DNA of 64,000 nucleotides from Methanococcoides orientis (lineage in GTDB: Archaea > Halobacteriota > Methanosarcinia > Methanosarcinales > Methanosarcinaceae), in NCBI RefSeq assembly GCF_021184045.1, contig NZ_CP073710.1:1374685-1438684 (forward strand), in the 5' to 3' direction. The position numbers and the translations under genes were made by a program. The notes under the pieces are model-generated. The model worked only from the letters and a program-made list of their open reading frames with translations, had not been told where the DNA came from and ran no database searches. Below are positions 31,951 to 48,161 of the stretch, one piece after another (within the stretch, counting starts at the first letter, position 1; each line of letters starts with the position of its first letter).

Positions 31951-33588
31951 ATGGAAGAAAACGAAAAATTCTTAGAAGACCTTGACAACAAACTCTGGAC
32001 ATCCGCTGACAAGTTACGTTCCAATCTTGATGCTGCTGTCTATAAGCACGTAGTTCTTGGCCTTGTTTTTCTTAAATATGTTTCTGATGCATTCGAAGAG
32101 CGACGAAAAGAGCTTCTAGAACAATTCAAAGACCCTGAGCATGATTATTATTTAGGCGGGGATGAGGAATTAGAGACTGAAGAACTGGAAATCCGGGACT
32201 ATTATACTGAGAAAAACGTCTTCTGGGTACCGGCACTGGCTCGCTGGGACACATTGCAAAGTTGTGCCAAGCTTTCTTCTGGTGCAGAGATTAACATCAA
32301 AAATGAAAAGATTGATACTTATAAGATGGTAAGTGTGGGTCGTCTTCTTGATGATGCAATGGAGGCAATCGAAAAAGATAATCCAAAACTTAAAGGTGTG
32401 CTAACTAAGGATTATGCACGTTTGCAGATTGAATCCGGTAAGCTTGGGGAATTAATAGATCTTATTGCTACTATACCTTTTAGACACAAAACTCTGAAGG
32501 CAAAGGATATCCTTGGACATGTATACGAATATTTCCTTGGTGAATTTGCTAGCGGAGAAGGGAAAAAGGGAGGGCAGTATTACACTCCAAAATCTATAGT
32601 AACTCTTATTGTTGAAATGCTGGAACCTTTCCAGGGTAGAGTATACGACCCTGCTTGTGGTTCAGGTGGTTTCTTTGTCCAATCGGAACGTTTTGTGGAA
32701 GAACATGGTGGGCGTATTGGACAATTATCGATATACGGCCAGGAATCAAACCCTACAACTTGGCGACTTGCCTGTATGAATATGGTTATCCGAGGTATGG
32801 ATTTTGATTTTGGGAAAGAGTTTGCTGATACTTTCACTCGTGATTTGCATCCAGACCTTCGTGCAAATTACATCATGACCAATCCACCTTTTAATATGAA
32901 AGAATGGGGTGGAGAGTATTTGAAAGATGACCCTCGGTGGAAATATGGTCTGCCCCCCACTAATAATGCCAATTTTGCATGGATGCAGCATATGATTTAT
33001 CACCTTGCACCCAATGGTAGCCTGGCATTGTTGTTGTCTAATGGTTCCATGAGTTCCAATACTAATAATGAAGGAGTGATTCGTAAATCTATAATCGAAA
33101 GTGACCTAGTGGAGTGCATGATAGCATTGCCAGGGCAACTCTTCACGAATACTCAAATTCCTGCATGTATTTGGTTCCTGACTCGCAACAAGGAAGCATA
33201 TAACGAAAACCGAGCACGTAAGGGAGAGACATTGTTTATTAATGCCCGTGATCTTGGTTATATGAAGAATCGTGTTTTACGTGATTTTGATTATGATAAA
33301 GATATTCTTCGTATTGCCAACACTTTCCATGCTTGGAAAAAAGGAGATGGTTATGAAGATGAACCTGGTTTCTGCAAATCTGTAGATATAGACTACATCC
33401 GTAAGCATGAATATGTACTTACTCCTGGTCGCTACGTTGGAGTGGCCGATTTGAAAGACGACGTTGAACCTTTCGAAGAGAAAATGGAAAAGTTGACCAA
33501 GGATTTGTCCAAACAGTTTAAAGAATCAGCACAATTAGAGACTAATATCAGAGTAAACCTTCTAAATGTGGGGTATGAGATTGAATAA
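31951..33588 (+). CDS. hsdM: Type I restriction-modification methyltransferase subunit
   Basis: A 545-residue N6-adenine methyltransferase: N-terminal HsdM helical domain (L-W-x-S-A-D-K-L-R-S-N-L-D-A-A-V-Y-K-H-V-V-L-G), G-G-Q-Y-Y-T-P-K-S-I, SAM motif I D-P-A-C-G-S-G-G-F and catalytic motif IV N-P-P-F. It forms a 2M:1S complex with HsdS. The length is normal. It opens the hsdM-hsdS-SIR2-hsdR cluster and slightly overlaps hsdS. Confidence 0.95.
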   Translation: MEENEKFLEDLDNKLWTSADKLRSNLDAAVYKHVVLGLVFLKYVSDAFEERRKELLEQFKDPEHDYYLGGDEELETEELEIRDYYTEKNVFWVPALARWDTLQSCAKLSSGAEINIKNEKIDTYKMVSVGRLLDDAMEAIEKDNPKLKGVLTKDYARLQIESGKLGELIDLIATIPFRHKTLKAKDILGHVYEYFLGEFASGEGKKGGQYYTPKSIVTLIVEMLEPFQGRVYDPACGSGGFFVQSERFVEEHGGRIGQLSIYGQESNPTTWRLACMNMVIRGMDFDFGKEFADTFTRDLHPDLRANYIMTNPPFNMKEWGGEYLKDDPRWKYGLPPTNNANFAWMQHMIYHLAPNGSLALLLSNGSMSSNTNNEGVIRKSIIESDLVECMIALPGQLFTNTQIPACIWFLTRNKEAYNENRARKGETLFINARDLGYMKNRVLRDFDYDKDILRIANTFHAWKKGDGYEDEPGFCKSVDIDYIRKHEYVLTPGRYVGVADLKDDVEPFEEKMEKLTKDLSKQFKESAQLETNIRVNLLNVGYEIE

Positions 33589-34930
33589 TAATGATTCCAA
33601 ATCATATCCACTTATTCCAATTGGAGAGTTATTGGAAACAATTATTGATTATCGAGGGAAAACACCACCCAAATCTACTTCTGGCATACCGGTACTTACA
33701 GCTGCTAACGTAAGAAATGGACGAGTCATATTAGATAAGTGCTCTTACGTTTCCCAAGAAACGTATGATGAATGGACTACTAGGGGATTCCCAAAACCAG
33801 GTGATGTTCTAATAAGCACTGAAGCACCTGTAGGTGAAGTTGCTTCATTCCCAGGAGACAGAACTTATCTCATTAGTCGTCGTTTGATAGCTTTAAGAGG
33901 AAAGGAAGGAGAACTTGATAATGATTTTCTGAAATACTCCTTGCTTTATACCAGGAACAGAGATTTGCTTTTAGCTTCGACTCGTGGATCTACTGTCCCA
34001 CGTGTTCTTAAAACTGATATCACAAACTTGGTAATTCCAATTCCTCCTTACCATGAACAAAAATTGATTTCTCAAATTCTTAATACATTTGATGAAAAAA
34101 TTAAACTCAATAAGATAATGAACCAGACACTTGAAACTATGGCTCAGGCCATCTTTAAGTCTTGGTTTGTGGACTTTGACCCTGTTAAAGCCAAAGTCAA
34201 TAATGAAAACACCGAATCCATATGTCGTCGTCTCTACTTAACACCTGAAATGCTTGCTCTCTTCCCCAACAGCTTTGAAGAGACAGCAATGGGTGAAATG
34301 CCGAAGGGTTGGAGCATGAAAACTTTGGCAGATATGATTTATCTAACTCGTGGAAAATCCTACAAGAGTAGTGAATTGCAGGACTCTGATACTGCATTAG
34401 TGACTCTCAAATCATTCAAGCGTGGGGGTGGCTACCGACCAGATGGACTTAAACCATATAGTGGCCAATATAAGTCGGACCAAGTAGTTCAACCCGGGGA
34501 ATTGATTGTAGCTCAAACAGACGTAACTCAAAAAGCTGAAATAATTGGTAAACCTGCGCTTGTGCGGCAGGATCAACTCTATAGCACTTTGGTTGCATCA
34601 TTGGATACAGTAATCGTTCGGCCGATTGAAGATCGCATTAATATTCCCTTTCTGTATTGTCTTTTCAGAACAAATGCCTTTCAAGCCCACACTTATGGAC
34701 ACTCAACAGGCACCACTGTTCTTCACCTTAGCAAGCAAGCAATCCCTAGCTACGAGTTTATATGTCCGCCGAAACAATTGATGGATAAGTTTTCTATAAT
34801 TGTAGATTCTGTGATCACTAAAATTGATGCTAATGAGCAAGAAAATAAAAAACTAGCTGCTATCCGTGATCTTTTATTGCCAAAGCTTTTTTCCGGAAAA
34901 ATACGAGTGAACTCATCTGAGGTTGTTTAA
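33566..34930 (+). CDS. hsdS: Type I restriction-modification specificity subunit
   Basis: A 454-residue HsdS with two target recognition domains (about residues 10-160 starting P-L-I-P-I-G-E-L-L-E-T, and 240-390 starting M-P-K-G-W-S-M-K-T-L-A-D-M) separated and followed by conserved coiled-coil helices (E-Q-K-L-I-S-Q-I-L-N-T-F-D-E-K-I-K-L-N, and E-N-K-K-L-A-A-I-R-D-L-L-L-P-K-L-F-S-G). It defines the DNA site recognised by both methylation and restriction. The start may be at 33566 or the ATG at 33575; both overlap the end of hsdM. Confidence 0.93.
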   Translation: MWGMRLNNNDSKSYPLIPIGELLETIIDYRGKTPPKSTSGIPVLTAANVRNGRVILDKCSYVSQETYDEWTTRGFPKPGDVLISTEAPVGEVASFPGDRTYLISRRLIALRGKEGELDNDFLKYSLLYTRNRDLLLASTRGSTVPRVLKTDITNLVIPIPPYHEQKLISQILNTFDEKIKLNKIMNQTLETMAQAIFKSWFVDFDPVKAKVNNENTESICRRLYLTPEMLALFPNSFEETAMGEMPKGWSMKTLADMIYLTRGKSYKSSELQDSDTALVTLKSFKRGGGYRPDGLKPYSGQYKSDQVVQPGELIVAQTDVTQKAEIIGKPALVRQDQLYSTLVASLDTVIVRPIEDRINIPFLYCLFRTNAFQAHTYGHSTGTTVLHLSKQAIPSYEFICPPKQLMDKFSIIVDSVITKIDANEQENKKLAAIRDLLLPKLFSGKIRVNSSEVV

Positions 34931-36033
34931 TGGATAAACTGAGACAACAAGAAAGCCTTATTGAGCAAGCACTTCAGCTGTATTCTGAGAAATACAATAA
35001 TAATAAAGAATTTAATGACTATTATGACAGCTTGGTGATTTCTTTGGACCAACTGGGCTTAAAAAATAGTCTTGTGCTCTTCTGGGGGGATCTTGACTCT
35101 TACAACAACGAAATGGCTGAATGGGAAAACCAAGAAATTGAATCCCAACATGCAGATTGTAAAGAACTATTAAGTTCAGGTAATGCTGACCAGACCTTAC
35201 TATTCAAGGATGTTATCGAAGCCGTTAGACGTCGACGAATTGTTCCATTTGTTGGTGCTGGCTTTTCTAAATATATGGGCATGCCACTTTGGCATGAAGC
35301 ACTACAAGAGATACACGACAAACAACGTAACCCACAATGTGATGTGTTTGATAAGTATTTGAATGAAGGCCATTATTTGGATGCTGCACAACTTCTCGCT
35401 GACAAAGATCAAGATGTCATGAACAATTTCATAAGAACAAAATTTCGTGTCCAAAAAATAGAAGGGCCAGTCCAACTTTTACCAATGATTTGCAACGGAT
35501 GTGTTGTGACCACAAACTTCGATGATTCAATTGAAGAAGTGTTCAAGCAGGCGGACAAAGGATTCGATGCATATATGCATGGCACTCAACAACACACATT
35601 TTTTTCGCGACTTGTTAAAGGGGATCGCTGCATACTGAAAATACATGGTGATGCAGATGATAATCCAGATACGTTTGTTTTTACACAAAGCCAGTATGAA
35701 AATGCCTATGGGAACCCATTCGATTTTACAAAATCATTACCCAAAGCTTTAAGGCAAATTTTTGTAAGTAACTCCCTTCTTTTTGTTGGTTGTAGCCTTG
35801 ATCAAGATTGGACTCTGAAGTTGTTCAAGGCGGTACGGGATCAAGATGAGTATGAATTGCCAACTCATTATGCTATTCTGGAGGAACCACCTCAAGAAGA
35901 AATACTAGAAAAAGAAGCTGATCTCCTGAAATGCAATATTCACCCAATCTGGTATCCTGCAAAAGAATACGATTCTGTAGAAAAGCTACTAAACTTAATA
36001 ATTGATGCAGTGAATGGTCGGATTAATCTATAA
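34930..36033 (+). CDS. SIR2-like protein within the Type I RM operon
   Basis: A 367-residue protein with a helical N-terminal domain (about 1-90) and a SIR2-family NAD-binding domain: V-P-F-V-G-A-G-F-S-K, V-T-T-N-F-D-D-S-I, L-K-I-H-G-D and L-L-F-V-G-C-S-L-D-Q-D-W. SIR2 domains in defence genes (Thoeris ThsA, DSR, AVAST types) deplete NAD on infection. The ATG overlaps the hsdS stop by one base (TAATG) and hsdR begins 15 bases after, so it is translated with the RM genes. It may be a back-up abortive module when restriction fails (inference). Confidence 0.85.
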   Translation: MDKLRQQESLIEQALQLYSEKYNNNKEFNDYYDSLVISLDQLGLKNSLVLFWGDLDSYNNEMAEWENQEIESQHADCKELLSSGNADQTLLFKDVIEAVRRRRIVPFVGAGFSKYMGMPLWHEALQEIHDKQRNPQCDVFDKYLNEGHYLDAAQLLADKDQDVMNNFIRTKFRVQKIEGPVQLLPMICNGCVVTTNFDDSIEEVFKQADKGFDAYMHGTQQHTFFSRLVKGDRCILKIHGDADDNPDTFVFTQSQYENAYGNPFDFTKSLPKALRQIFVSNSLLFVGCSLDQDWTLKLFKAVRDQDEYELPTHYAILEEPPQEEILEKEADLLKCNIHPIWYPAKEYDSVEKLLNLIIDAVNGRINL

Positions 36034-36048
36034 GCCTGGGTGTGAGCC

Positions 36049-39000
36049 ATGATAAACGAAAATGAACTAGAAAATCTGATTCTGAATTGGTTTCAGGACG
36101 TTGGTTGGAGCTATATTCCAGGCACCAATATTGCTAACGACGGTCAAACACCCGAAAGAGAAGATTATGGTCAGGTGCTATTGAATGGTCGGATTCTCAA
36201 GGCACTACATCGCCTCAACCCGGAAGTGCCTGCACCAATATTGGAAGAGGTGTTGAACCGACTCGCTAAGCCGGAACATCCATCTCTCATACAGAACAAT
36301 CACTCTTTTCATAAGATTCTACTGGAAGGTTTTCCTGTAGTTTATGAAAAGGATGGTGAGAAACGTGGGGATAGAGTACGGCTCATTGATTTTGAGCATC
36401 GTGAGATGAATCAGTTTCTTGTTGTGAACCAGTTCACTGTACAAGGTCTGAAACAACTACGTAGACCCGACATTGTTGCCTTCATAAATGGATTTCCCAT
36501 TGCTGTAATTGAGTTAAAGAATCCAACCGTCGAGCAGGCGGATATATGGGCTGCATATCATCAATTGCAGACCTATAAGAATGAGATATCCGATCTCTTC
36601 ATGTTCAATGAAGCGATGATAATCTCAGACGGGTTCAATGCTCGTGTTGGTTCACTGACTGCATCAAAAGAATGGTTCATGCCCTGGCGTACCATCCGTG
36701 AAGAACAGGACAAACCTCTTCTAGAGTATGAACTGGAAAAAATAGTTCGTGGTTTTTTTGACCCTGATATGCTGCTTGATTATCTTAGGTACTTCATACT
36801 TTTTGAACCTACAGGCGATACGTTTGTGAAGAAAATTGCAGGTTACCATCAGTTCCATGCTGTGCGTGAAGCAGTTTATACAACTATAAGAGCTGCTGGA
36901 TTGTCGACAAATACTGAAGAAAATGGAACACTTGGGGAATATACAAACAAAGTGGAACCTGGCTCAAAGCGTGGTGGAATAGTCTGGCACACACAGGGTT
37001 CAGGCAAGAGTATCTCCATGGCCTGCTTTGCCGGTAAACTAATGCAACAATCGGAAATGCAGAATCCTACTCTTGTTGTAGTCACCGATCGCAATGATCT
37101 TAATGGTCAGTTGTATCAAACTTTTGTTAATGCAAAGATGTTGCTCAAGGAAACACCTGTAAAGGCTGAAAATCGTGATGAATTACGCGAGCTACTTGCT
37201 GGCCGCCCTTCAGGTGGAATCATTTTTACTACAATTCAGAAATTCATGCCCAGAAAAGGCGAAAACCATTACCCAAAACTCACCAATCGTAATAATGTTG
37301 TAGTGATAGTCGATGAGGCTCATCGCAGCCAATATGGGTTCCAAGCTAAATTAGATGCTGATGTAGGGGCTTTCAAATACGGCTATGCTCATCACATGCG
37401 TTCAGCATTACCCTCAGCAACGTTTGTCGGTTTTACCGGTACTCCCATTGAAAATGATGACAAAGACACTCGTAAAGTTTTTGGATCTTATGTAAGCATT
37501 TATGACATCCAAGACGCGGTAATGGATGGTGCAACTGTGCCTATTTATTACGAAAGCCGCCTCGCAAAATTGGATATAAAACAAGCTGATATCGACATAC
37601 TTAATGAGGAAGTAGAGGAAGTTTTAGAGGATGAGGAAGATCTTGCTCTGCGTGAGAAATCAAAATCCCATTGGGCAGCTTTGGAGCAACTGGTAGGAGC
37701 CGATAAGCGAATAAAAGAAGTAGCTAAGGACTTGACAATGCATTTTGATAATCGGAATGCTTCCATTGAAGGTAAAGGTATGATTGTCTGCATGAGCCGT
37801 GAGATATGTGTGAACATGTATAATGCTATCACGGAATTAAAACCACAATGGCACAGAGAAGACCCACATAATGGGACTATAAAAATTATTATGACGGGAT
37901 CTGCTTCTGATGACGAACTCCTTCAGCCCCATATCTATAACTCCCAGACAAAGAAGATGCTGGAAAAACGTTTCAAGGATCCGAATGACCCTCTTAAAAT
38001 TGTCATTGTGCGTGATATGTGGCTCACAGGATTTGATGTTCCATGCCTTCACACAATGTATGTGGACAAGCCGATGCGTGCTCATAACCTAATGCAGGCT
38101 ATAGCTCGTGTGAACCGTGTATTCCATGAAAAGCAGGGTGGTCTTGTGGTTGACTATATCGGTATTGCTTCAGAACTTCGCTTAGCTCTGAAAACATATG
38201 TTGAGAACCGAGGTAAGGGAACGCCTACTATTGATGCCTCTGAGCCTCTAGGAATACTCAAAGAAGAGATGGAAAAGGCTCGTGACATGTTCCATGGATT
38301 TAATTATGACGATTACCAGGATGATGCAGCTGAATTACTTTTACCAGCAGCGAATCACATCCTTGGTCTTGAAAATGGACGAAAACGCTATTTTGATGTG
38401 ATTGTCGCGATTTCAAAAGCATATTCATTATGCGGAACTTCAGATGATGCAATGAAAATTCGCGAAGAGATTGCATTTTTCCAGGCAGTTAAGGTAGTTA
38501 TTTCCAAAGCATCTAACAGTGATAAAAAAATAGCCGATGAAAAGAAGAACCAAATCATCAAACAAATTCTTGACAATGCTCTCTTATCAGAAGGTATCGA
38601 GGATATCTTCAAATTGGCAGGCTTAGAAAAACCAGACATTAGCATTTTGTCTGATACATTTCTCGATGAAATCAGGCATCTACCACAGAAAAATCTGGCA
38701 GTAGAGTTATTGCAAAAGCTTCTTCGGGATCAAATAAAATCACGAGTTCATAACAATGTGGTACAGGAGCACAAGTTCAGTGAGCGCTTAACTGCCTCTT
38801 TGAACAGATATCATGGTCACACTATCAAAAGCGCTGAAATTATAGATGAACTAATCGCTATGGCCAAAGAATTCCGTGAAACTGCAAAGCGTGGTGATGA
38901 GCTTGGGCTCAATGATTCAGAATTAGCTTTCTACGATGCCCTAGCAAACAATGAAAGCGCTGTTCATGAATTGGGTGATGAGACTCTTAAGATAATTGCA

Positions 39001-39204
39001 CTGGAATTGACAGAAAAGCTACGTAAAAGTACAACAGTAGACTGGCAAAAGCGAGATAGTGTACGTGCAAAACTACGTAATCTAGTTCGCATAACTCTGC
39101 GTCGCTATAAGTATCCACCTGACAAACAAAAAGAGGCCATTAAACTCGTATTACAACAAGCCGAACGTTTGTCGGATGATTGGAGCAAAGATGTTGAAAA
39201 CTAA
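36049..39204 (+). CDS. hsdR: Type I restriction-modification endonuclease/translocase subunit
   Basis: A 1051-residue HsdR. The N-terminal PD-ExK nuclease has R-P-D-I-V-A-F-I-N-G ... I-E-L-K-N. SF2 motor motifs follow: Walker A T-Q-G-S-G-K-S (near residue 322), V-D-E-A-H in motif II, F-T-G-T-P in motif III, and Q-A-I-A-R-V-N-R in motif VI. The C-terminal helical domain binds the MTase. Length and motifs are complete, so restriction should work with hsdM and hsdS. It is the last gene of the casposon. Confidence 0.95.
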   Translation: MINENELENLILNWFQDVGWSYIPGTNIANDGQTPEREDYGQVLLNGRILKALHRLNPEVPAPILEEVLNRLAKPEHPSLIQNNHSFHKILLEGFPVVYEKDGEKRGDRVRLIDFEHREMNQFLVVNQFTVQGLKQLRRPDIVAFINGFPIAVIELKNPTVEQADIWAAYHQLQTYKNEISDLFMFNEAMIISDGFNARVGSLTASKEWFMPWRTIREEQDKPLLEYELEKIVRGFFDPDMLLDYLRYFILFEPTGDTFVKKIAGYHQFHAVREAVYTTIRAAGLSTNTEENGTLGEYTNKVEPGSKRGGIVWHTQGSGKSISMACFAGKLMQQSEMQNPTLVVVTDRNDLNGQLYQTFVNAKMLLKETPVKAENRDELRELLAGRPSGGIIFTTIQKFMPRKGENHYPKLTNRNNVVVIVDEAHRSQYGFQAKLDADVGAFKYGYAHHMRSALPSATFVGFTGTPIENDDKDTRKVFGSYVSIYDIQDAVMDGATVPIYYESRLAKLDIKQADIDILNEEVEEVLEDEEDLALREKSKSHWAALEQLVGADKRIKEVAKDLTMHFDNRNASIEGKGMIVCMSREICVNMYNAITELKPQWHREDPHNGTIKIIMTGSASDDELLQPHIYNSQTKKMLEKRFKDPNDPLKIVIVRDMWLTGFDVPCLHTMYVDKPMRAHNLMQAIARVNRVFHEKQGGLVVDYIGIASELRLALKTYVENRGKGTPTIDASEPLGILKEEMEKARDMFHGFNYDDYQDDAAELLLPAANHILGLENGRKRYFDVIVAISKAYSLCGTSDDAMKIREEIAFFQAVKVVISKASNSDKKIADEKKNQIIKQILDNALLSEGIEDIFKLAGLEKPDISILSDTFLDEIRHLPQKNLAVELLQKLLRDQIKSRVHNNVVQEHKFSERLTASLNRYHGHTIKSAEIIDELIAMAKEFRETAKRGDELGLNDSELAFYDALANNESAVHELGDETLKIIALELTEKLRKSTTVDWQKRDSVRAKLRNLVRITLRRYKYPPDKQKEAIKLVLQQAERLSDDWSKDVEN

Positions 39205-39452
39205 GCAGGTTAAATAGTTCATGTTTAGAGTGATTTATTTTCCTGCATGTAGTTTTTTAACTCAAATATGAAAAAATGTGTTGGAATAAAAACATATGTT
39301 TTTTTCTTTTTCTAGGCAATAGCATAACTTTTAGCAGCTGTCTTATTTTGTTTGACTAATACAAAAACGAACTAATATCACTTATTTATAGAATTCAGTT
39401 ATTATATTATTTTTTGATTAATCCCAAGTTTGACAGTCAAAATAAATATTAG

Positions 39453-39502
39453 TGTTCTTAGTTATGTTGATTCGATCAAAAACGCAACAACAACTAAGAA
39501 CA
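39453..39502. repeat. Long inverted repeat downstream of hsdR
   Basis: TGTTCTTAGTT (39453-39463) pairs perfectly with AACTAAGAACA (39492-39502), and TGTTG (39465-39469) with CAACA (39485-39489) inside it. The result is a 16-bp hairpin with a small internal bulge and a 15-base loop. It may protect or end the hsd mRNA or be a small RNA. Confidence 0.5.
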
Positions 39503-39841
39503 TACGAAATAGTTCCTAATACCAATTATCCTTTCCAATTAGAACCATTCTTGCTGTTGAAAAATTTTATGATATCTTGAATTTTAACTCTGTTTTCAGC
39601 AAACACAAGCTAGAAACTGATTGAAACTGTTAAATTTGGGATTGATATAAATTCTAAACTATTTTGAAATAGACTTTCACTTTGTCATTAACCCCATAGA
39701 TAATTTCAAAAAATCGATTTACAAGATGTATTTTTTGATGAATAATATATATTTTTAATTTCAACTTTCCTCAATTAAAATAATAAAACACCCTAAAATT
39801 ATGAGTATCTATTTTTCAAGATACCTATTACCCCAACTTTC

Positions 39842-39863
39842 TATGCGAGGGGTAAGATTCGAA
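39842..39863 (-). other. tRNA-Leu-like 3' segment inside the casposon end
   Basis: On the minus strand GTTCGAATC is followed by TTACCCCTCGCA, closely matching the end of the target-site tRNA fragment at 23021-23041. The T stem does not pair well, so it is not a tRNA. It may be captured target DNA or a homing signal for tRNA-Leu sites. Confidence 0.4.
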
Positions 39864-39897
39864 CTCAAAAAAATCAAAATCTCAATTCAAAATTTGT

Positions 39898-39929
39898 AGC
39901 GTACACTTTTTTCACGTTATATATATCCC
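39898..39929. repeat. Right terminal inverted repeat of the casposon
   Basis: Reverse complement of the left repeat with one difference (T for C at position 16). It directly abuts the right target duplication. Confidence 0.92.
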
Positions 39930-39943
39930 CGCAGAATACTTCG
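39930..39943. repeat. Right copy of casposon 14-bp target duplication
   Basis: CGCAGAATACTTCG, identical to 23038-23051. Confidence 0.9.
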
Positions 39944-39967
39944 GGGATATAGGTAACGTGAAAAAAC
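39944..39967. repeat. Second, diverged casposon end adjoining the duplication
   Basis: GGGATATAGGTAACGTG followed by a run of A resembles the first 24 bases of the left casposon repeat, differing at three positions, and then diverges. It is placed exactly where an element end should lie relative to CGCAGAATACTTCG. It is best read as the left end of an older casposon inserted at the same site. No matching right end was found in the window. Confidence 0.65.
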
Positions 39968-40371
39968 GGAACTTTTTAAATTTTAAATTGGTATTAGTAT
40001 GCTTGGATGCTGATTCTTGCCTAAGGTTAAAATATTGAGAATCGCATAAAAATCATCAAGCTTTTCTAAGTACGAATATAAAAGTTTATAATCTAGCATA
40101 TTAATTAAATGTCATGTTAGAAAAAATTGAGTTAGATTTCTTTTTTGGGAACTATCACAAAGACCTTTTAATGTAACTCTGGCTCTGTAGAAATCCGAAT
40201 ACCTGCTTAATATTCTAAGCATGAATTAGCTTAAAAAGGAGTGCTACAAATTGATACTGTATAACATCAATAAATCTGTTAGTTACAGATTTGTATTAGT
40301 TTATAGAGGATTTCTACAGAGCCTAGGAAATATAGTGATACATCACTTATTGCCCTTCATCAAATGGAGAC
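39968..40371. other. Non-coding stretch after the second casposon end
   Basis: AT-rich with no gene. Its only recognised content is the 143-bp inverted-repeat element at 40181-40323. Confidence 0.5.
40181..40323. mobile_element. 143-bp MITE-like element
   Basis: The ends are perfect 16-bp inverted repeats: GGCTCTGTAGAAATCC (40181-40196) and its complement (40308-40323). A near-identical end (GGCTTTGTAGAAATCC) occurs alone at 40859-40874. The interior has no gene. No target duplication is clear. It probably derives from an insertion sequence whose transposase is elsewhere. Confidence 0.6.
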
Positions 40372-40794
40372 TCAGTCCTCCAAAGGCGAATATTTGGCAG
40401 CTATAACCCTTATTACACCCAATGCCAGTAGCAATGCCGATAGACTTAAAACAAATTCATATTCAACTTTGTGGGCATAAACCTCAGATGCGATTTCACG
40501 CATGACGAGTAAAATCGTAGCATCGGTTATATATGTAAGTCTGATTCGCTCATGTTCACGATAATCAACAAAAGTCTTGAAAAGGTCAATAAGAACAAAA
40601 ACTGTGAGAACACTAACTACTACATCAATAAAATCTATATGAATAAAATTGCCTTCAAGAACCTCAAATATAATTAAGCCGAGACTCACAAAAATATTTA
40701 GCACTCCCACAATTAGCGCTATTAGCAGTACATAAAGGATGGAAAAAGTGACTGAACGTATTACTGTATCAAATATTTTATCATGAGTTATCAT
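40372..40794 (-). CDS. PsiE-family membrane protein
   Basis: A 140-residue membrane protein with four hydrophobic helices. The loop V-L-T-V-F-V-L-I-D-L-F-K-T-F-V-D-Y and the T-D-A-T-I-L-L-V-M-R-E-I-A segment fit the PsiE (phosphate-starvation-inducible E) family, whose function is unknown. The frame extends upstream to 40845; I prefer the M-I-T-H-D-K start at 40794 since the extra residues overlap AT-rich DNA near an IS end. It lies between two IS-like ends. Confidence 0.65.
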   Translation of the reverse strand: MITHDKIFDTVIRSVTFSILYVLLIALIVGVLNIFVSLGLIIFEVLEGNFIHIDFIDVVVSVLTVFVLIDLFKTFVDYREHERIRLTYITDATILLVMREIASEVYAHKVEYEFVLSLSALLLALGVIRVIAAKYSPLED

Positions 40795-40841
40795 TTGTCC
40801 CACACTCGTCCAAATTAGGCTAATAGTAATTAGCATTGATA

Positions 40842-41006
40842 TCAATATATAGTTTTTCGGCTTTGTAGAAATCCTCCTGAAAACAGATGATGAAAGGTGT
40901 TCAATAGAGTGACAATCCCTCCGCCATATGCGTACATTGACATTGCTCCAACAACTGTGAGTGGTGTAAAAACGATGTACTTAAAAAATCCTGCTTCATA
41001 TAACAT
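40842..41006 (-). pseudogene. Truncated membrane protein remnant at an IS end
   Basis: A 54-residue frame (M-L-Y-E-A-G-F-F-K-Y-I-V then a hydrophobic stretch G-A-M-S-M-Y-A-Y-G-G-G) that runs into the IS-like end at 40859-40874 and stops just after it. There is no ribosome site. It looks like a fragment of a membrane protein cut by insertion; the family is not recognised. Confidence 0.25.
40859..40874. repeat. Solitary IS-like end
   Basis: GGCTTTGTAGAAATCC differs at one base from the ends of the 40181-40323 element and has the same orientation as its left end. A matching right end is not found nearby. Confidence 0.5.
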
Positions 41007-41231
41007 GAAGAACTATATTATGTTATAAAGATATGAAATTTCGAAAACAACAAGGAGAAGTCTTCGTTTTTTGTGTTAACGAGATACCAAAATACAGATG
41101 AAGGGCCTTTCCGGAAAGACCTCACGATGCCTGGTGGATGCATTGAGCGGTGCGTTCAATTATTTCAACCGGAAGAGTGTGCATGTTCCGAGGTTTAGTT
41201 CTGGATTCGGTGTGAGCGGTGGGTTGAGGGT

Positions 41232-41399
41232 TTAATATTTATTGACCTCTGTGACTTGGCGTTTAAAGATAATGCTGTTCCCACATATTGCAACGAGTTC
41301 CCAATTTGAAGATCCATGTTTATTTAGTTGTCTTTCAAAATTTGTCCCGTCTATTTCGTCGACAAGATATTCCCAGTGATTTTTTTCTTCATAAGGCAT
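41232..41399 (-). CDS. DUF4177-like small protein, 55 residues
   Basis: A short protein reading W-E-Y-L-V-D-E-I-D ... L-N-K-H-G-S-S-N-W-E-L-V-A-I-C ... I-I-F-K-R, which is the DUF4177 pattern (a strand, a helix ending in L-N-x-x-G-x-x-G-W-E-L-V, and a strand). A good GGGAG ribosome site lies nine bases before the ATG. The function is unknown. It survives within the degraded casposon region. Confidence 0.55.
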   Translation of the reverse strand: MPYEEKNHWEYLVDEIDGTNFERQLNKHGSSNWELVAICGNSIIFKRQVTEVNKY

Positions 41400-41815
41400 A
41401 TAAAACACTCCCTAAATTAATATTGCAGTAGCATTACTTTAATCTAATCCTGCATGATTGTCAACTTTCCTTTTTATATTCCCATCACTCAGCTCCACCT
41501 ATGAGCTTTATCAATCTCTTATTTTCATCCAAACCTCAACCCAAAAATTCAAATCCCGTAGATGCATTTGCCAGCTCCGACCCTACGAAACCTACGCTTC
41601 TAACTTAAAATGGATCTCTGAAACCAAAACCAAACTTCCCAATGGAACAACATTCAACATCACTTCCACAATGCACAAGGAAGCCTTCTAGGCAGATCCT
41701 CTACTGAAAGGTACCATCACACCATTCCTGAAGAATGCAGTCATTGGAACGTACCACATTGAGACTGAGGACGACAAAAAACATGAGGTATTCATCCAAG
41801 AGATCGAAGAATATC
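41400..41815. other. Degraded DNA before the cas1 C-terminal remnant
   Basis: On the plus strand, broken frames around 41590-41820 read like former coding DNA (K-W-I-S-E-T-K-T-K-L-P-N-G-T-T, a stop, then K-N-A-V-I-G-T-Y-H-I-E-T-E-D-D). I do not recognise the protein. A similar broken piece, L-S-G-K-T-S-R-C-L-V-D-A-L-S-G, lies at about 41103-41235. Confidence 0.35.
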
Positions 41816-41984
41816 TCAATTCTCCAACCTCTCCCTGACATGAGCATTGAGAGTAAACGGCTTATCACTCATAGCATTCTGCTTCATGTAGTGCAATGTG
41901 CCTTTAGAGAACCCCATCTCCTTCCACTCGGTGTAAGGCATGTCAATGATCTTCTTTCTCAACTGCTTGAATACTGCCTAAAGT
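41816..41984 (-). pseudogene. cas1 (casposase) C-terminal remnant
   Basis: The minus-strand frame reads L-R-K-K-I-I-D-M-P-Y-T-E-W-K-E, then M-G-F-S-K-G-T-L-H-Y-M-K-Q-N-A and S-D-K-P-F-T-L-N-A-H-V-R-E-R-L-E before a stop. This matches the HTH-bearing C terminus of the intact casposase at 31240-31400 almost residue for residue. The rest of the gene is missing upstream. Confidence 0.85.
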
Positions 41985-42067
41985 AAATTTCAAAAATAGT
42001 TTTGTACCTACAAGTCAGTTTAGTAAATGAAAATATAGAATCACATACCAAAATCAGGAGTAATATA

Positions 42068-42697
42068 ATGACTAAAATAGCTTATCTTTACGTTCTTAAC
42101 ACGATGGCCGACTGGGAGCCGAGTTACCTGATCGCGGAATTGAATTCCGGCCGTTATTTCAGGAAGAATGCAAGCGAATACACGGTCAGGACAGTAGGTA
42201 TTACAAAAGAGCCTGTTGTTACCATGGGTGGGTTGCGTATTGAGCCAGACATTAGCCTTGATGAATTAATGACTGACGATGCCGGAGTGCTGATCCTGCC
42301 AGGTGGCGATACCTGGCTTGAAGATATTCACACGCCAATACTGGAGAAAGCAAAGGAGTTCCTGGATGCAGGTATCACTGTTGGTGCCATATGTGGTGCA
42401 ACTCTGGGTTTTGCTAAAGCCGGCCTTCTGGATAACAGACTCCATACAAGTAACGATCTGGATTACCTGAAAACGGTCTGTCCCGATTACACCGGAGAAT
42501 CATTTTATCGTCAGGAGCCTGCTGTGACTGATGGTAACCTTATAACTGCCTCAGGGATTGCCCCTCTTGAATTCGCAAAGGAAGTTATCAGGAACCTGGA
42601 TATATTTTCGGCCCAGACCCTTGAAGCATGGTATCAGTTATATGTTACTCATAAGACGCAGTATTTCTATGCAATTATGGAGTCGCTGGAAGAGTGA
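42068..42697 (+). CDS. DJ-1/PfpI family protein
   Basis: A 209-residue class I glutamine amidotransferase-like protein of the DJ-1/PfpI group: L-I-L-P-G-G-D-T-W-L, the nucleophile elbow V-G-A-I-C-G-A-T with its reactive cysteine, and T-A-S-G-I-A-P-L-E-F-A. Members act as proteases, chaperones, deglycases or glyoxalases. The start at 42068 is supported by AGGAG; the frame upstream has no ribosome site. It appears intact although cas1 remnants flank it on both sides. Confidence 0.85.
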   Translation: MTKIAYLYVLNTMADWEPSYLIAELNSGRYFRKNASEYTVRTVGITKEPVVTMGGLRIEPDISLDELMTDDAGVLILPGGDTWLEDIHTPILEKAKEFLDAGITVGAICGATLGFAKAGLLDNRLHTSNDLDYLKTVCPDYTGESFYRQEPAVTDGNLITASGIAPLEFAKEVIRNLDIFSAQTLEAWYQLYVTHKTQYFYAIMESLEE

Positions 42698-42792
42698 GGT
42701 AAGAGTTTACAGTGTATTTTAGGTTTGGTATTCTGCTCCATGTCGTGCAAAAATGGATATATAAAAAACTAAGATATTCTTTGTTAAGGGAA

Positions 42793-43059
42793 TTAAAAGA
42801 TGGGAACAATGGAATTAGGCGCATTTTCAGTTAGTCTTAATGTAAAGGATATTGAAGCTTCAAGGTTAGGAACAGCTTTAGCATACTCATTCCAGTATTT
42901 CCAGGCAATTCCACCTTCAATACCAAGTATCTCTCTTATGGATTTAGCGTTCTCAAGTTTAGCCTTATCATCAGAGAAATCAGACTCAATCTTCTCCCCG
43001 AATTTTAGATCTTTTACTTCCTGGCTGAAAGCAGGGAATAGAAGCTCACGATATTCCAA
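42793..43059 (-). pseudogene. cas1 middle-domain remnant
   Basis: The frame contains A-K-S-I-R-E-I-L-G-I-E-G-G-I-A-W-K-Y-W-N-E-Y, matching residues 153-174 of the intact casposase and including its catalytic-type glutamate. Both ends stop matching Cas1 after about 30 residues on either side, so only the middle of a gene is left. Confidence 0.8.
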
Positions 43060-43091
43060 GAGGGATTATCAAACTTCACAACTTAGACCCT

Positions 43092-43739
43092 TCAGCTAAC
43101 ATCTGCATTGTTGCTGTAGCCCTTGCTTTCCCAGTATCCCTGGTAATCCTCGTCAGTTACTTCTATCTTCACTATCCACTTTGCCCACTTGTAACCATAT
43201 TTGCCTTCCGCAACAAGCTGCAGCGGGAATCCCTTGTCAGGAGGCAGTGTTATGTCATTTATTTTGTAGGCTGCAATTATGTTGTTACCCAGTAAATAAT
43301 CCAATTCAAGAGCTGTGGAATAGCCCTCTTTGGAATAGAAAATGACAGTCTTCGCCCTTTCCTGCAATCCGGCTTCATTGAACATGGTCTCCAATTTAAC
43401 CCCGGTCCATTTTGCATCATATCCCCAGCCTTCCCCATAATTAAGGGTTACTGCCTTTGAAACGGATGGATATGCCAGTATGTCATCATAAGTCAGGACA
43501 ATCGTCTTGTTTACCAGTCCGGTTATCTCGAGCCTGTAATCGTCAGGATCAAGATACTGTATTCCCTTGAGGGAATAGGTTTGCTGCTCGTTAATCGGGG
43601 TAAGCTTCACACCATCATATTCCAGTGTCTCGGTTTCGTTCGATGGGAATACTTCTTTCTTCTCCCCGGGAGGAAATTGGCCGGGTCCTGCTGAAAGTAA
43701 AAACGGAAGAAGTTGTAAAGCACAAAAGAAATTTTTCAT
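43092..43739 (-). CDS. Sulfite oxidase-fold (YedY-like) protein lacking the Mo cysteine
   Basis: A 215-residue exported protein with a short N-terminal hydrophobic segment and an oxidoreductase molybdopterin domain: Y-R-L-E-I-T-G-L-V, L-T-Y-D-D-I-L-A-Y-P, G-W-G-Y-D-A-K-W-T-G-V, and L-P-P-D-K-G-F-P-L-Q-L-V ... Y-G-Y-K-W-A-K-W-I. In active enzymes a Cys before E-G-W binds molybdenum; here that segment is L-N-Y-G-E-G-W with no cysteine. Cofactor binding without the thiolate, or a non-enzymatic role, is possible. The start at 43739 is preferred because GGAGTG lies upstream and it gives a signal-like N terminus. Confidence 0.7.
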   Translation of the reverse strand: MKNFFCALQLLPFLLSAGPGQFPPGEKKEVFPSNETETLEYDGVKLTPINEQQTYSLKGIQYLDPDDYRLEITGLVNKTIVLTYDDILAYPSVSKAVTLNYGEGWGYDAKWTGVKLETMFNEAGLQERAKTVIFYSKEGYSTALELDYLLGNNIIAAYKINDITLPPDKGFPLQLVAEGKYGYKWAKWIVKIEVTDEDYQGYWESKGYSNNADVS

Positions 43740-43948
43740 GTTATTTTCACACTCCGGGCATGCGAATCCTTTTGCAGGCTTATATAGCTTTTCACGATTC
43801 TTCTGCATCTTGATTGTTGATGTACTCGTTGAATTGCAGGACAGTTAATTTTGGATCTCTTGTGTTCATACCATTTCCTTAAAAGACTTGCTATGTAAAT
43901 TATGTCGTTTTAAATGAATTATGCAGTGCAAAATTACAGGTATCTAAT

Positions 43949-44290
43949 TTAGGATGAAATACACTCGACTAATTTTTCCACTGCATCCGTATTCAAATTA
44001 ATATCATTATTCGCCAGAATCCTATCCTTTATCCTCTTGAAAGTGCCTCTGTTTACACCCCATTCTTCAACCTGTGATTGAGACAATTCAAGTATATTTC
44101 TCATAATGTCCTGCTTGTCAATGAACACCTGTGAACGCTTAACATCCAATTCCTGTTCATCAATGTTGTTAGCTTCCTTTCCAATATATATTACAGAATC
44201 AACATGAACATGCTCCCTTTCAAGAACCCCAACCTCACCATCAAACTTATGCTCAGGATGTTCCACATACTGCATATTTGTCCTGCTCAA
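43949..44290 (-). pseudogene. Casposon polB C-terminal remnant
   Basis: The frame matches the last 110 residues of the intact casposon polymerase: H-P-E-H-K-F-D-G-E-V-G-V-L-E-R with H-P-E-A-K-F-E-G-D-V-G-V-L-Q-R, then V-I-Y-I-G-K-E-A-N-N with V-Y-I-G-K-E-A-N-K, then R-I-K-D-R-I near the end. Upstream polymerase motifs are absent, so this is a fragment of a second casposon. Confidence 0.85.
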
Positions 44291-44364
44291 GTCGTTGAAT
44301 TCGGATAGATTTTAATTTTGCTAAGGATCAAATTTATCTTTTTGAAGACTTAAGCAGTATAGTT

Positions 44365-44859
44365 ATGGAACAAGATCTCTCGATTCCACCAGTAATTATC
44401 CGACCTGCAACCGAAATTGACACTGCCCAAATAATGATCTTCATCAGGTCCCTTGCTGAATTCGAAAAATTAGCTCACACACTGACAGCAACCGAAGATG
44501 ACCTGAAAACTTCTTTATTCGGAAAAGAACCATGTGCCGAAGCAGTGATAGCTGAGATCAACAACAACCCCGCCGGATTAGCACTCTATTTCCACAACTT
44601 TGCTGCATATATTGGAAAACGCGGGCTCTACATTGAAGCTATATATGTCGATCCTAAATATCGCGGATTAGGGGTTGGAGAAGCACTTCTAAAACATTGT
44701 GCGAAGATTGCAAAAGAGAGAGATTGCGGGACAATGGATTGGGTAGTTCTGGACTGGAATCCTGCAAGGAAATTTTATGAGAAAATGGGTGCTAAAGCAG
44801 AAGATGAATGGGTTTTTCACACCCTAGATGCGAAGGGAATAGATGATCTTGCAGAATGA
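44365..44859 (+). CDS. GNAT acetyltransferase (diamine/thialysine-type)
   Basis: A 164-residue GNAT enzyme. It has I-R-P-A-T-E-I-D at the N terminus, L-Y-I-E-A-I-Y-V-D-P-K-Y-R-G-L-G-V-G-E-A-L-L as the acetyl-CoA pyrophosphate loop (R-G-L-G-V-G), and W-N-P-A-R-K-F-Y-E-K-M-G-A at the C-terminal motif B. The pattern L-A-E-F-E-K-L and D-L-x-x-x-L-F-G resembles spermidine/spermine and thialysine acetyltransferases. The substrate is not certain. It lies between polB and cas1 remnants. Confidence 0.85.
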   Translation: MEQDLSIPPVIIRPATEIDTAQIMIFIRSLAEFEKLAHTLTATEDDLKTSLFGKEPCAEAVIAEINNNPAGLALYFHNFAAYIGKRGLYIEAIYVDPKYRGLGVGEALLKHCAKIAKERDCGTMDWVVLDWNPARKFYEKMGAKAEDEWVFHTLDAKGIDDLAE

Positions 44860-44900
44860 ATACATTCGTGTACTTTATTTCAAATTCATTTTCATCTATT

Positions 44901-44981
44901 TGAGAGCTTCAAGGCTCAGAGATCCACTTCTGCCATACACAACAATACTATATCCCCTCAATTCTCTACTAGAGGTTGTAA
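44901..44981 (-). pseudogene. cas1 N-terminal remnant
   Basis: The frame reads R-E-L-R-G-Y-S-I-V-V-Y-G-R-S-G-S-L-S-L-E-A-L-K then stop, matching residues 42-63 of the intact casposase (D-V-D-S-I-V-V-Y-G-Q-T-G-N-I-T-L-D-A-I-R). It is short, but the V-V-Y-G core and spacing are specific for the casposase. Confidence 0.7.
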
Positions 44982-45079
44982 AGTTATTAGACATTGAGAA
45001 TAGTAAGCAGGATTGAAAATCAAAATTGATCAAAGGAAATGTAAAAAGATTTAAAAAAAATGAAAATAGAAATGTTCGG

Positions 45080-45577
45080 TCACTGGACCTTTGCCTGAAC
45101 TTCCTTTGCAAAATCCTTTGCTTTCTGAAGATGAGCTTCATCTGGCTGTCCTTTTGCAGCTGGTCCCAGCGCAGCAAATGCCTTCATCTCAGGGTCATCG
45201 GACTTTTCGAGCATATCAAGAACTTGCTGTGCAATTTCACCCTGACACTCAAATGTACCAAGTAAATTACCCTTGGCTGCGATATCCTTTAATGATCCAG
45301 TCCATGATTTAATGGCCTCAAATCCTTCAGGAACACCATGGGTCATGAAGAATGCTATGTCCTTACCGGCTACATTCTCTTTTACTATTTTTGAAACATT
45401 CTCCGGAACATTAAATTGTAATACAGGGAAACCTACGAAGACAAGGTCATAACCTTCAAAGTTGCTTAGATCCTTGATGTCTTTGATTTCCTTTTCATCA
45501 GCAATTTCATCATAAATAGCTTCTGCGATCTTCTTTGTGTTTCCTGTCTGTGACATATATGATACTAATGTTTTCAT
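45080..45577 (-). CDS. Flavodoxin
   Basis: A 165-residue flavodoxin-fold electron carrier: the FMN phosphate loop S-Q-T-G-N-T-K-K, V-F-V-G-F-P-V at the second strand and F-F-M-T-H-G-V-P at the third. The start at 45577 has a strong GGTGGGAG site; the longer frame adds an unlikely hydrophobic N terminus. About 70 bases upstream AATGTACGAACATT (45646-45659) resembles the palindrome at 46881, hinting at shared redox regulation. Confidence 0.85.
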   Translation of the reverse strand: MKTLVSYMSQTGNTKKIAEAIYDEIADEKEIKDIKDLSNFEGYDLVFVGFPVLQFNVPENVSKIVKENVAGKDIAFFMTHGVPEGFEAIKSWTGSLKDIAAKGNLLGTFECQGEIAQQVLDMLEKSDDPEMKAFAALGPAAKGQPDEAHLQKAKDFAKEVQAKVQ

Positions 45578-45732
45578 GAACTCCCACCTTATAATTGATA
45601 TAAAAAATAGGTTGTACAAATTTATAAAGATGCGGGTTGGTAAAATGTACGAACATTGAATTGGTACAGATAAATATACTATAAAAAAGGACCTTTGCAA
45701 GCTTTATCATTAACAGAAACCTTCTGCCCTCA

Positions 45733-45810
45733 TCATTCCAGCCTCTCCCTTACATGACCATTAAGCGTAAAAGGCTTATCAGCTTCAATATCGCCTCCCC
45801 TGAACTTCAT
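45733..45810 (-). pseudogene. Second cas1 C-terminal remnant
   Basis: The frame reads E-A-D-K-P-F-T-L-N-G-H-V-R-E-R-L-E and stop, almost the same as the C-terminal E-A-D-K-P-F-T-L-N-A-H-V-R-E-R-L of the intact casposase. As another C-terminal remnant lies at 41816, at least two older cas1 copies existed here. Confidence 0.75.
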
Positions 45811-45824
45811 TTCTCGTTTAATAT

Positions 45825-46217
45825 TCATAACTTTTCATGTGGGAACATCAAAGTAAAATTCCCATCCTCGAGTATTTCTATGTTCACGGTCCTCTTTTTT
45901 CCATCAGGGAACTCGACCTCACCGATATAACTCGATTCAACTGCATCCTCAAAACCATGGCTTAATGTTCTCAAAAGCAAACTACAATTCCGAATCAGGT
46001 CCAAAAAATTTGGCATATTAACCGTATCTCCGTCCTCCTCGAACATTCCAGCCTCCATAACACCCATGCTCACATAACCAAAGAACGGAGGAGCCAATCT
46101 TTTTCCACTAGGACTCAAGACCTTATCAAGGTCCATGAATTTACCATCTTTCACTGCATCCTGAATAGTATAAACCTTTTCAAACAAGTCCTCTGATCCC
46201 TCATTTTTGTCAGACAT
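45825..46217 (-). CDS. Unknown soluble protein, 130 residues
   Basis: A soluble alpha/beta protein without a recognised family. Visible traits: an acidic N terminus, L-S-P-S-G-K-R-L-A-P-P-F-F-G-Y, a helical middle, and a final beta segment S-S-Y-I-G-E-V-E-F-P-D-G-K-K-R-T-V-N-I-E-I. The ATG at 46217 follows GGAGGGAAAGGAGA; the frame extends upstream to 46337 but without such a site. Confidence 0.5.
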   Translation of the reverse strand: MSDKNEGSEDLFEKVYTIQDAVKDGKFMDLDKVLSPSGKRLAPPFFGYVSMGVMEAGMFEEDGDTVNMPNFLDLIRNCSLLLRTLSHGFEDAVESSYIGEVEFPDGKKRTVNIEILEDGNFTLMFPHEKL

Positions 46218-46373
46218 TCTCCTTTCCCTCCACACTCTTCTATCATTCTCTAAATTCATACCCATCGCATGATCTTTCAGGGTTATAGCTAACTGCCATT
46301 TTTTGTACGCTAACAATTTAGGCAATAAGAATAGCAAAATCTTAAAAAATGTAGGATGAAGTCATTTCCAGAT

Positions 46374-46470
46374 TTATTCTTTTGACTTCAGGTATTCTGC
46401 AATATTCTTACCCAGTTCTTTTGCTGCAGCGACAGCTTCGGGTTGGTCTTCGAATCTGTTTATCCCTACT
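46374..46470 (-). pseudogene. C-terminal remnant of a flavodoxin-like protein
   Basis: The minus-strand frame reads I-N-R-F-E-D-Q-P-E-A-V-A-A-A-K-E-L-G-K, then N-I-A-E-Y-L-K and a stop, the typical last helix of flavodoxin or NAD(P)H:quinone-type proteins. There is no start and nothing recognisable upstream, so it is a broken gene end. Confidence 0.5.
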
Positions 46471-46535
46471 TATCCACTCTTATTAACAATCAACTTGTAA
46501 ACATCTTAAATATTGTGTACAAAAGGGTGTGGGTA

Positions 46536-46775
46536 TCACAACCCTGCCCTTTCAACAAGAGTATCTGCAATCTGTTTCGCACTTTCGATCGGGAAGTCCT
46601 CTGATGTAAGAAGTGCACCTGCTTCTCCTGCAGTTATTTCGACATCTCCTGCTTTACATTTGGTGTCTGCACCTGCAGGCATTGCTGCAAGAAGGTCTTC
46701 AGGTGTGTTTATAGGGAATGTTGCATTTACAAGTGCTCCAACGATCTGGGAATGGATTTCTTCTTTTACGCTCAT
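46536..46775 (-). CDS. MTH865-family small protein
   Basis: A 79-residue protein matching the MTH865 family throughout: [42 protein letters not shown] and [10 protein letters not shown]. The family is a helical EF-hand-like fold found in methanogens and has no known function. An AAGGAGAG ribosome site precedes the ATG. It is divergent from the HTH gene at 46910, with the palindrome at 46881 between them. Confidence 0.9.
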
Positions 46776-46880
46776 ATTTTACTCTCCTTAATAGGTTTTT
46801 ATATGGCTGCATGTCTTCCGGAAGATTAGAACCACAATTAATAATTGAAAGGTTACCCATATATACTTGAGCGGCATTGT

Positions 46881-46897
46881 AATGTACTTAGTACATT
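46881..46897. promoter_or_regulatory. 17-bp perfect palindrome, probable operator
   Basis: AATGTACTTAGTACATT is perfectly symmetric around 46889 and ends 12 bases before the HTH gene's ATG at 46910. Bound protein there would block transcription start for that gene, so autoregulation is likely; it may also act on the divergent MTH865 gene. A related imperfect site lies before the flavodoxin gene. Confidence 0.6.
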
Positions 46898-46909
46898 CGG
46901 GTAACTCCA

Positions 46910-47719
46910 ATGACTATTATGGTTGTGCTGGAAACCTTTATAACCAATATGCAGAAAATCACTACTATGAACGAAGATTGTGAATCAGAACTCGGAGACA
47001 TCAGGGAAAAACTCGATGAGATCCACAGGGATATCAGGACATTTACCGAAGATTCCAACAGAGAACATCTCGAATCCATTCTGGCTTTTGTCCGAGATGA
47101 TTATTCCAATGTCCTGGAAAAGCACCTCGTTGACGATCTAAAAAAAGGCCTTTCAAAGAATATGGTCAAGAAATGTGACAGGCTTGACCAATGCAGACCT
47201 ATTTTCACAGATATGTTGCAGAAGAATGCAGCCCTTATCAAGCAACCTTCTGTTGACAGTGAAGTTATTGATAAAAAACGCGTAGATATCAAAAACTTAA
47301 GGAAAGAAATGCCCTACGATAAATGTGACATCTGCTTCGCCGAGGCAACCGACCTTTTTGAAAAACAGGTCAGCCTCATGCAGTCTCTGAGGATATATGA
47401 GACAAAGAAGGACAAGAAGCAGGACATATCACTTATCCCGGCACAAACTGTGATCGATGACGTGCTTGATCCCTTATGTCACACAAAACGTTTCGAAATA
47501 TTAAAAGCAGTTTCCAGCCAGTCAATGAGCTTCTCTGCCCTTTCCAAGCTTACAGGTCTTCGCGGAGGAAACCTTTTGTTTCACCTCCAGAAGCTCTCGG
47601 ATAGCGGGATGATCATCCAGCAACATGAAAGAGGCGATTATATGATCACTGCTAAAGGATTTAGGGTAATGGAAGGTGCCAGCGATATATATTTCTCCCT
47701 CGTCCCTGAAGAGAATTAA
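46910..47719 (+). CDS. Winged-helix regulator with helical N-terminal domain
   Basis: A 269-residue soluble protein. The N-terminal 180 residues are mostly helical with likely coiled coil (E-L-G-D-I-R-E-K-L-D-E-I-H-R-D-I-R), and include cysteines at C-D-R-L-D-Q-C and K-C-D-I-C that could bind metal or sense redox state. The C-terminal 85 residues form an ArsR-like winged helix (F-S-A-L-S-K-L-T-G-L-R-G-G-N-L-L-F-H-L-Q-K-L). The palindrome at its start suggests it controls itself. Starts at 46910 or a nearby internal Met are possible. Confidence 0.65.
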   Translation: MTIMVVLETFITNMQKITTMNEDCESELGDIREKLDEIHRDIRTFTEDSNREHLESILAFVRDDYSNVLEKHLVDDLKKGLSKNMVKKCDRLDQCRPIFTDMLQKNAALIKQPSVDSEVIDKKRVDIKNLRKEMPYDKCDICFAEATDLFEKQVSLMQSLRIYETKKDKKQDISLIPAQTVIDDVLDPLCHTKRFEILKAVSSQSMSFSALSKLTGLRGGNLLFHLQKLSDSGMIIQQHERGDYMITAKGFRVMEGASDIYFSLVPEEN

Positions 47720-47806
47720 GCTTTCTGGAACAACTGTAGAGAAGCAAGATCAGTGAAAACATTCAAATTTAAAAATAAGCTAAAGCAATTGACCTAACAG
47801 GTAATT

Positions 47807-47838
47807 AATAGGCGCCAGAATTAATAAAATCGCCTATT
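47807..47838. repeat. 8-bp inverted repeat between genes
   Basis: AATAGGCG (47807-47814) pairs with CGCCTATT (47831-47838) over a 16-base loop. It lies between the HTH gene and the small zinc-ribbon gene and may be a processing or 3' end structure. The rest of the 230-base gap shows only an AT-rich promoter region (GATATATATTGC near 47898). Confidence 0.4.
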
Positions 47839-48105: not shown

Positions 48106-48161
48106 ACCGGTCATGAGATTTAACTTTCCGATCATTTCCAAGAGACCGTTACAGATGACTC

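Follow-up and report, generated by a model that had tools for sequence, protein, structure and literature searches.

A second casposon end directly behind an intact casposon at an orphan tRNA-Leu fragment in Methanococcoides orientis

An intact casposon between ogg and cca

The window, that is, the whole 64-kb stretch of DNA that was analysed, carries an intact family-2-like casposon between the convergent genes ogg and cca (Table 1). Casposons are jumping elements powered by Cas1 and are the proposed ancestors of CRISPR adaptation. The element, referred to below as the young casposon, has terminal inverted repeats together with a matching 14-bp target-site duplication, as family 2 requires. 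Its casposase matches the M. mazei casposase 6opm over residues 14-414, the C-terminal HTH extension included (E 1.7e-195), and its polB has full-length relatives in other casposons. The HNH and the two HTH proteins gave no Pfam match and have relatives at the same positions in other casposons. The type I restriction-modification and SIR2-like genes give the cargo a defence-like character; a RES-domain gene beside a gene of no assigned kind (23158-25082) is also carried.

It had been proposed that the young element re-used the 14-bp target of an older casposon, and the 14 bp that separate the leader from the old end have indeed been duplicated by the young element. The duplication is best read as CGCAGAATACTTCG, which is identical on both sides of the element and in this reading starts with CGCA, as in M. 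mazei.

Table 1. Coordinates of the features at the locus, with two casposon loci elsewhere (last two lines)
Feature	Coordinates	Strand	Evidence or remark
ogg	22069-22926		flanking gene
Orphan leader GGTTCGAATCCAACCCCT, copy of tRNA-Leu 3' end (T-arm and acceptor tail)	23020-23037	+	landing site of the array
Left target-site duplication CGCAGAATACTTCG	23038-23051	+
Young casposon, intact, family-2-like	23052-39929	+
Left terminal inverted repeat, type A (GGGATATATATAACGCGAAAAAAGTGTACGCT)	23052-23083	+
polB (young)	25364-28054	-	PF00136, E 6.7e-8
HNH (young)	28047-28403	-
HTH gene (young)	28431-29075	-
HTH gene (young)	29248-30198	+
cas1 casposase (young)	30161-31414	+	PF01867, E 2e-66
Type I restriction-modification genes and SIR2-like gene (young)	31951-39204	+
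Inner type-C end with 14-mer and leader copy, inside young right end	39801-39865	-
Inner 14-mer CGCATAGAAAGTTG	39834-39847	-
Inner leader copy AGTTCGAATCTTACCCCT (tRNA-Leu 3' copy)	~39848-39865	-
Right terminal inverted repeat, type A	39898-39929	-	1 mismatch to left repeat (32 bp)
Right target-site duplication CGCAGAATACTTCG	39930-39943	+	between young and old elements
Older casposon end, type B (GGGATATAGGTAACGTGAAAAAACGGAACTTTTTAAATTTTAAATT)	39944-39989	+	pattern match; ends of relatives
Old casposase relic, residues 362-408	41822-41962	-	tblastn, 72% identity to young casposase
Old casposase relic, residues 151-191	42868-42990	-	tblastn, 56% identity
Start of casposon HTH gene, relic	42992-43090	+	tblastn, E 1.7e-4
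polB C-terminal relic	43958-44290	-	tblastn; blastn 89% to L115
cas1 C-terminal relic at right edge of inserted block	45736-45819	-	tblastn; edge by synteny
Separate ~125-bp insertion, degenerate leader and casposon end (46280)	46250-46375	+	absent from G005
cca	48162-49508		flanking gene
Second casposon of this genome, at true tRNA-Leu(TAA)	G000:C1:965493-985324 (L035, L036)		target-site duplication CGCACTTTTCTTTT on both sides
Three adjacent M. burtonii-type casposons, ends and four CTCATAACAAGTCG repeats	G002:C1:565944-595609 (L181-L183)

Eight of ten congeners have no insertion at the ogg/cca site: the two genes are directly adjacent in six, and only host genes lie between them in G003 and G005. 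Relative to G005, the window has an insertion from ~22943 to 45804, as judged by synteny; the separate insertion at 46250-46375 adjoins a host gene. In G004 and G009 the upstream flank is the same as in the window, but it is followed by relics with other casposon ends and other 14-mers. Since different casposon relics lie beside the same flank in these two genomes, the site has been hit repeatedly, and at least three or four casposons have used it. The 14-mer at the same orphan leader differs between species (L115, L117), with CGCAGAATACTTCG here and CGCATGGCACGTTG in G004 next to a flank of 91% identity, a difference for which duplication alone does not account. Casposons have been reported to be able to bring along a copy of their target (PMC10359463), and differing 14-mers at one leader would fit such a case.

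The old end and the gene relics behind it

Directly 3' of the right target duplication stands GGGATATAGGTAACGTGAAAAAA (39944-39966), which the first-pass annotation had taken for the end of an older, diverged casposon. Within this genome, the claim was checked with pattern and protein searches. The end pattern GGGGATATANNTAACGTGAAAAAA, which covers both end variants and was applied with at most 3 mismatches, matched three times in the window, at both ends of the young casposon and at 39944, and gave 0 matches in 100 dinucleotide shuffles. Across the 2.49-Mb genome as a whole only 2 more matches turned up, both weaker, and apart from casposon ends and weak end-like sites the 39944 motif is found nowhere in it. 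Aligned with the ends of relatives, the sequence from 39944 resembles casposon ends in Methanolobus (L044, L040) and Methanococcoides over ~45 bp (..CGGAACTTTTTAAATTTTAAATT).

Three types of end occur in this genome and the named relatives: type A, GGGATATATATAACGTGAAAAAAGTGTACGCT; type B, GGGATATAGGTAACG..AAAAAACGGAACTTTT; and type C, GGGTAATAGGTATCTTGAAAAATAGATACTC. The 39944 end is of type B, in contrast to type A at both outer edges of the young casposon. It sits at the exact edge of the target duplication, where it and the right end of the young element stand back to back with nothing other than the 14-bp repeat between them; back-to-back ends with 14-bp spacing are also found elsewhere in this genome, in Methanolobus and in Methanosarcina. 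The same bases were also sought beside tRNA-Leu in strains free of casposons and were not found there: eight congeners have neither these bases nor the tRNA piece at the ogg/cca site, and the tRNA-Leu(CAG) gene of this genome is followed by a different sequence. The observation is confirmed, and 39944-39989 is a real casposon end.

Using tblastn with the proteins of the young casposon as queries, we found gene relics in casposon order behind this end, which bears out the proposal that an older, diverged casposon lies directly behind the young one. The relics follow one another as cas1 C-terminus (-), cas1 middle (-) and HTH gene start (+), that is, as a casposon that points the opposite way to the young element; the array L181 of the same genus shows this order too (casposons of G002 compared; we take G002 to be M. 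burtonii DSM 6242). Interspersed with these relics are genes encoding a PsiE-like protein, a DJ-1/PfpI protein and a molybdopterin-binding oxidoreductase. The older casposon is represented by cas1 and HTH fragments only, and the nearest polB fragment is wrongly oriented. This fragment (43958-44290) was considered as part of the 39944 element and rejected because of its orientation and because in G004 it lies behind a different end. Together with the GNAT and flavodoxin genes that follow, it is common to the window and G004, and it appears to belong to a further, still older casposon insertion.

The first-pass annotation had suggested looking for the right partner of the old end beyond the window. 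Synteny with a relative, however, places the edge of the inserted block near 45804, and a distal end that would match was not detected: a combined end-plus-duplication score yielded neither a second inverted end nor a further copy of the 14 bp in 40000-48160, the best distal candidates by this score were no better than shuffled sequence, and the 60 kb after the window held no matching end with at most 6 mismatches. The far end of the old element has been lost, for which its state as a relic may account; the element was presumably complete on arrival.

The landing site and casposon stacks elsewhere

The target proved not to be a tRNA-Leu gene, as had been assumed, but an orphan 3' fragment of one. 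The tRNA-like stretch extends from the leader into CGCA as far as 23041 (~22 nt in total), ARAGORN called no tRNA in the window, and the casposon has no complete tRNA gene upstream of it. The possibility that the leader is a recognisable tRNA gene was dismissed on the ARAGORN result and on the finding that nothing is conserved upstream of -19. A few other leaders, such as L262, look like decayed tRNA-Leu.

To describe the target, we compared 47 non-redundant casposon ends from Methanosarcinaceae, none of them preceded by another end. They share the upstream footprint GGTTCGAATC-N3-CCCCT|CGCA, with conservation confined to -18 to -9 (GGTTCGAATC), -5 to -1 (CCCCT), +1 to +4 (CGCA) and the G adjacent to the element. 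The leader at 23020-23037 matches this footprint, which agrees with the motif 8 bp upstream of the duplication used by the A. boonei casposase (PMC6614799) and with the requirement of the M. mazei casposase for 30 bp of tRNA-Leu plus a duplication starting with CGCA (PMC6977970). No tRNA-Leu was called by ARAGORN at 55 Methanococcoides junction loci. Leader-motif sites that ARAGORN did not call as tRNA had a casposon end 13-14 bp on in 19 of 21 cases, or 17 of 19 after removal of two double-counted sites, counts that represent a sample and not a census because the pattern allowed one mismatch and included one arbitrary base downstream. Among tRNA-Leu genes in the genus, 4 of 12 had a casposon end, two of these at 18 bp. 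A preference of the casposase for element junctions as such, also considered, is not needed, since the upstream leader motif alone explains re-use of the site; the junction side has no T-arm motif, and the order of the elements follows from entry beside the leader.

Comparable stacks occur elsewhere, also at true tRNA-Leu genes. In L040 the order is tRNA-Leu, CGCATCGCTTCTAA, casposon, CGCATCGCTTCTAA, older end; in the present genome, tRNA-Leu(TAA) is followed by CGCACTTTTCTTTT, a casposon, CGCACTTTTCTTTT and an older relic. The polB match of this second casposon is split over two frames. In G002 a leader precedes three casposons, around which the 14-mer CTCATAACAAGTCG stands in four identical copies. 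The terminal inverted repeats of the adjacent M. burtonii casposons were unidentifiable in 2014 (PMC4046053).

Preservation is better next to the leader. The leader-proximal element keeps the longer cas1 in 8/8 scored arrays (those with a leader and a back-to-back junction), among them the tRNA-Leu(TAA) casposon of this genome and that of Methanolobus vulcani B1d at a true tRNA-Leu, although the count is biased upward because arrays were partly found through an intact cas1 and some distal stretches are short. L198 shows the reverse, with a small relic beside the leader and a longer cas1 fragment beyond; its flanking 14-mers are unequal and it was left unscored, while L194, which was scored, likewise has unequal 14-mers. 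The order in the scored arrays is support for leader-proximal addition, not proof of it.

At either edge of a 3.2-kb stretch (L030:8685-11880; G000:C1:688685-691880) lie casposon ends and 14-mers that resemble each other, but the stretch gives no cas1 match; it may be a non-autonomous casposon within a stack of three elements. Methanococcoides genomes contain up to 38 casposase matches each, most of them covering only the last 40-50 residues, the HTH tail (e.g. G000:C1:1371847, 724902 and 959415). It seems that the cas1-side end of casposons preferentially persists, or that small derivatives exist.

The right end of the young casposon is itself composite. A type-C end runs leftwards from 39833, 96 bp inside the element, and is accompanied by its own 14-mer and leader copy. 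In G009 a type-C casposon is actually inserted at a sequence ~91% identical to about 86 bp of this region, and its cas1 is the nearest of those found; in L045 a casposon running from a type-A to a type-C end lies at a true tRNA-Leu between equal 14-mers. About a dozen similar stacked ends were present in the fetched loci, mainly from Methanococcoides, with a spacing of 75-96 bp, mostly 83-86. In the simplest reading, an A-to-C element would have grown outward across its target as far as a second type-A end, and the whole would afterwards have moved as a unit. We suggest, tentatively and with more doubt than confidence, that Methanococcoides casposons might have become independent of tRNA genes and might use scattered orphan tRNA-Leu 3'-end copies as landing sites, some of them carried in their own ends. 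With a leader copy inside its own end, transposition of a casposon might also spread new landing sites. If so, the young element would be composite and would have taken its former target along when it transposed by means of an outlying end.

How the stack may have formed

Two ends, a shared 14-bp repeat and gene relics of the old element are present at this locus, and the site is empty or differently occupied in relatives. We consider it very probable that an older casposon, now broken, has its leader-proximal end at 39944-39989 and that both elements were directed by the leader to one target. Casposases would recognise a short leader, consisting of the T-arm and acceptor tail of tRNA-Leu and represented here by the orphan copy, and would cut at the CGCA that follows it. 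Each insertion would duplicate the leader-adjacent 14 bp and leave the leader intact, so that each newcomer would enter on the leader side of its predecessor and push that one outward. The old and young elements would then adjoin as a result of landing at one short tRNA-like sequence. We infer a polarised leader mechanism of this kind for the clade's casposase; in vivo, a mini-casposon inserted into an occupied target site (PMC10359463).

The 39944 end might instead be a short stand-alone unit, a solo end with a leader copy (~86 bp), that never formed the edge of a full casposon. Units of this kind recur in the genus, stacked short units do exist at about a dozen places, and a ~125-bp solo-end insertion is found at 46250-46375. 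Nevertheless, there is no leader copy 50-65 bp after 39944, where one would be expected, and the cas1 and HTH relics lie 1.9-3.1 kb from 39944 in the correct casposon order, while in relatives the distance from the cas1 C-terminus to the cas1-side end ranges from ~1.1 kb (L181) to 7 kb (L187); we regard a solo end as highly improbable. That the two elements arrived jointly as a single composite, or through segmental duplication, and not by two successive insertions at one target, seems to us less probable still. Segmental duplication has been raised for the adjacent casposons of M. burtonii and M. psychrophilus (PMC4046053), and the young right end is itself composite, but a perfect 14-bp duplication flanks the young element alone, and the two elements have opposite orientations, different end types and cas1 pieces of only 56-72% identity.

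The position of the end right after a tRNA-derived stretch might suggest that ordinary DNA following a tRNA-Leu sequence begins at 39944 and that its likeness to a casposon end is accidental. This reading has practically no probability left, being already contradicted by the absence of matches in shuffled sequence, by the 8/12 tRNA-Leu genes examined in the genus that have no such end, by the absence of the end from this site in eight congeners and by the casposon gene relics behind it.

The first-pass interpretation is essentially right, and the locus is an instance of a described phenomenon, tandem casposons (PMC4046053, PMC6563490, PMC9939771, PMC10359463), whose insertion has also been obtained in vivo (PMC10359463). 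As related in PMC9939771 and PMC6563490, the Methanosarcina tandem casposons of Krupovic et al. 2016 are alike in that the elements are split only by a 14-bp duplication starting with CGCA, beside tRNA-Leu 3' sequence. As far as these accounts go, the present locus differs in that the target is an orphan tRNA-Leu 3' fragment and not a tRNA gene, and the second element is an inverted relic with more relics behind it. Adjacent casposons, some of them decayed, are known from the same or a neighbouring genus as MetBur-C1 to C3 of Methanococcoides burtonii and the second remnant of Methanolobus psychrophilus R15 (PMC4046053); whereas no terminal inverted repeats were identified for these in 2014, ends and identical 14-bp repeats are now resolved for the G002 array and the window locus. 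Nitrosopumilus adriaticus NF5 likewise received two casposons successively at one target, but these are family-1 casposons and the target, ef-2, is protein-coding (PMC6563490). Orphan leaders and a leader inside a casposon end appear less documented; for these and for a natural footprint we found no description in the literature consulted, though Krupovic et al. 2016 might contain some of it.

The locus shows unusually clearly how casposon stacks build up. A leader, a repeated 14-mer, an intact newest element and decaying older ones form a chromosomal record of leader-proximal addition, a property common to the casposon stack and CRISPR arrays. In the latter, Cas1-Cas2 insertion is also directed by a leader and accompanied by repeat duplication, with the newest unit nearest the leader, whereas the casposon stack has kilobase transposons instead of spacers, repeats of 14 bp and no Cas2 that we could see. 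With the 47-site footprint, this clade of casposases has a target consensus that can be tested, and through the orphan leaders one can ask if casposons create landing sites for themselves.
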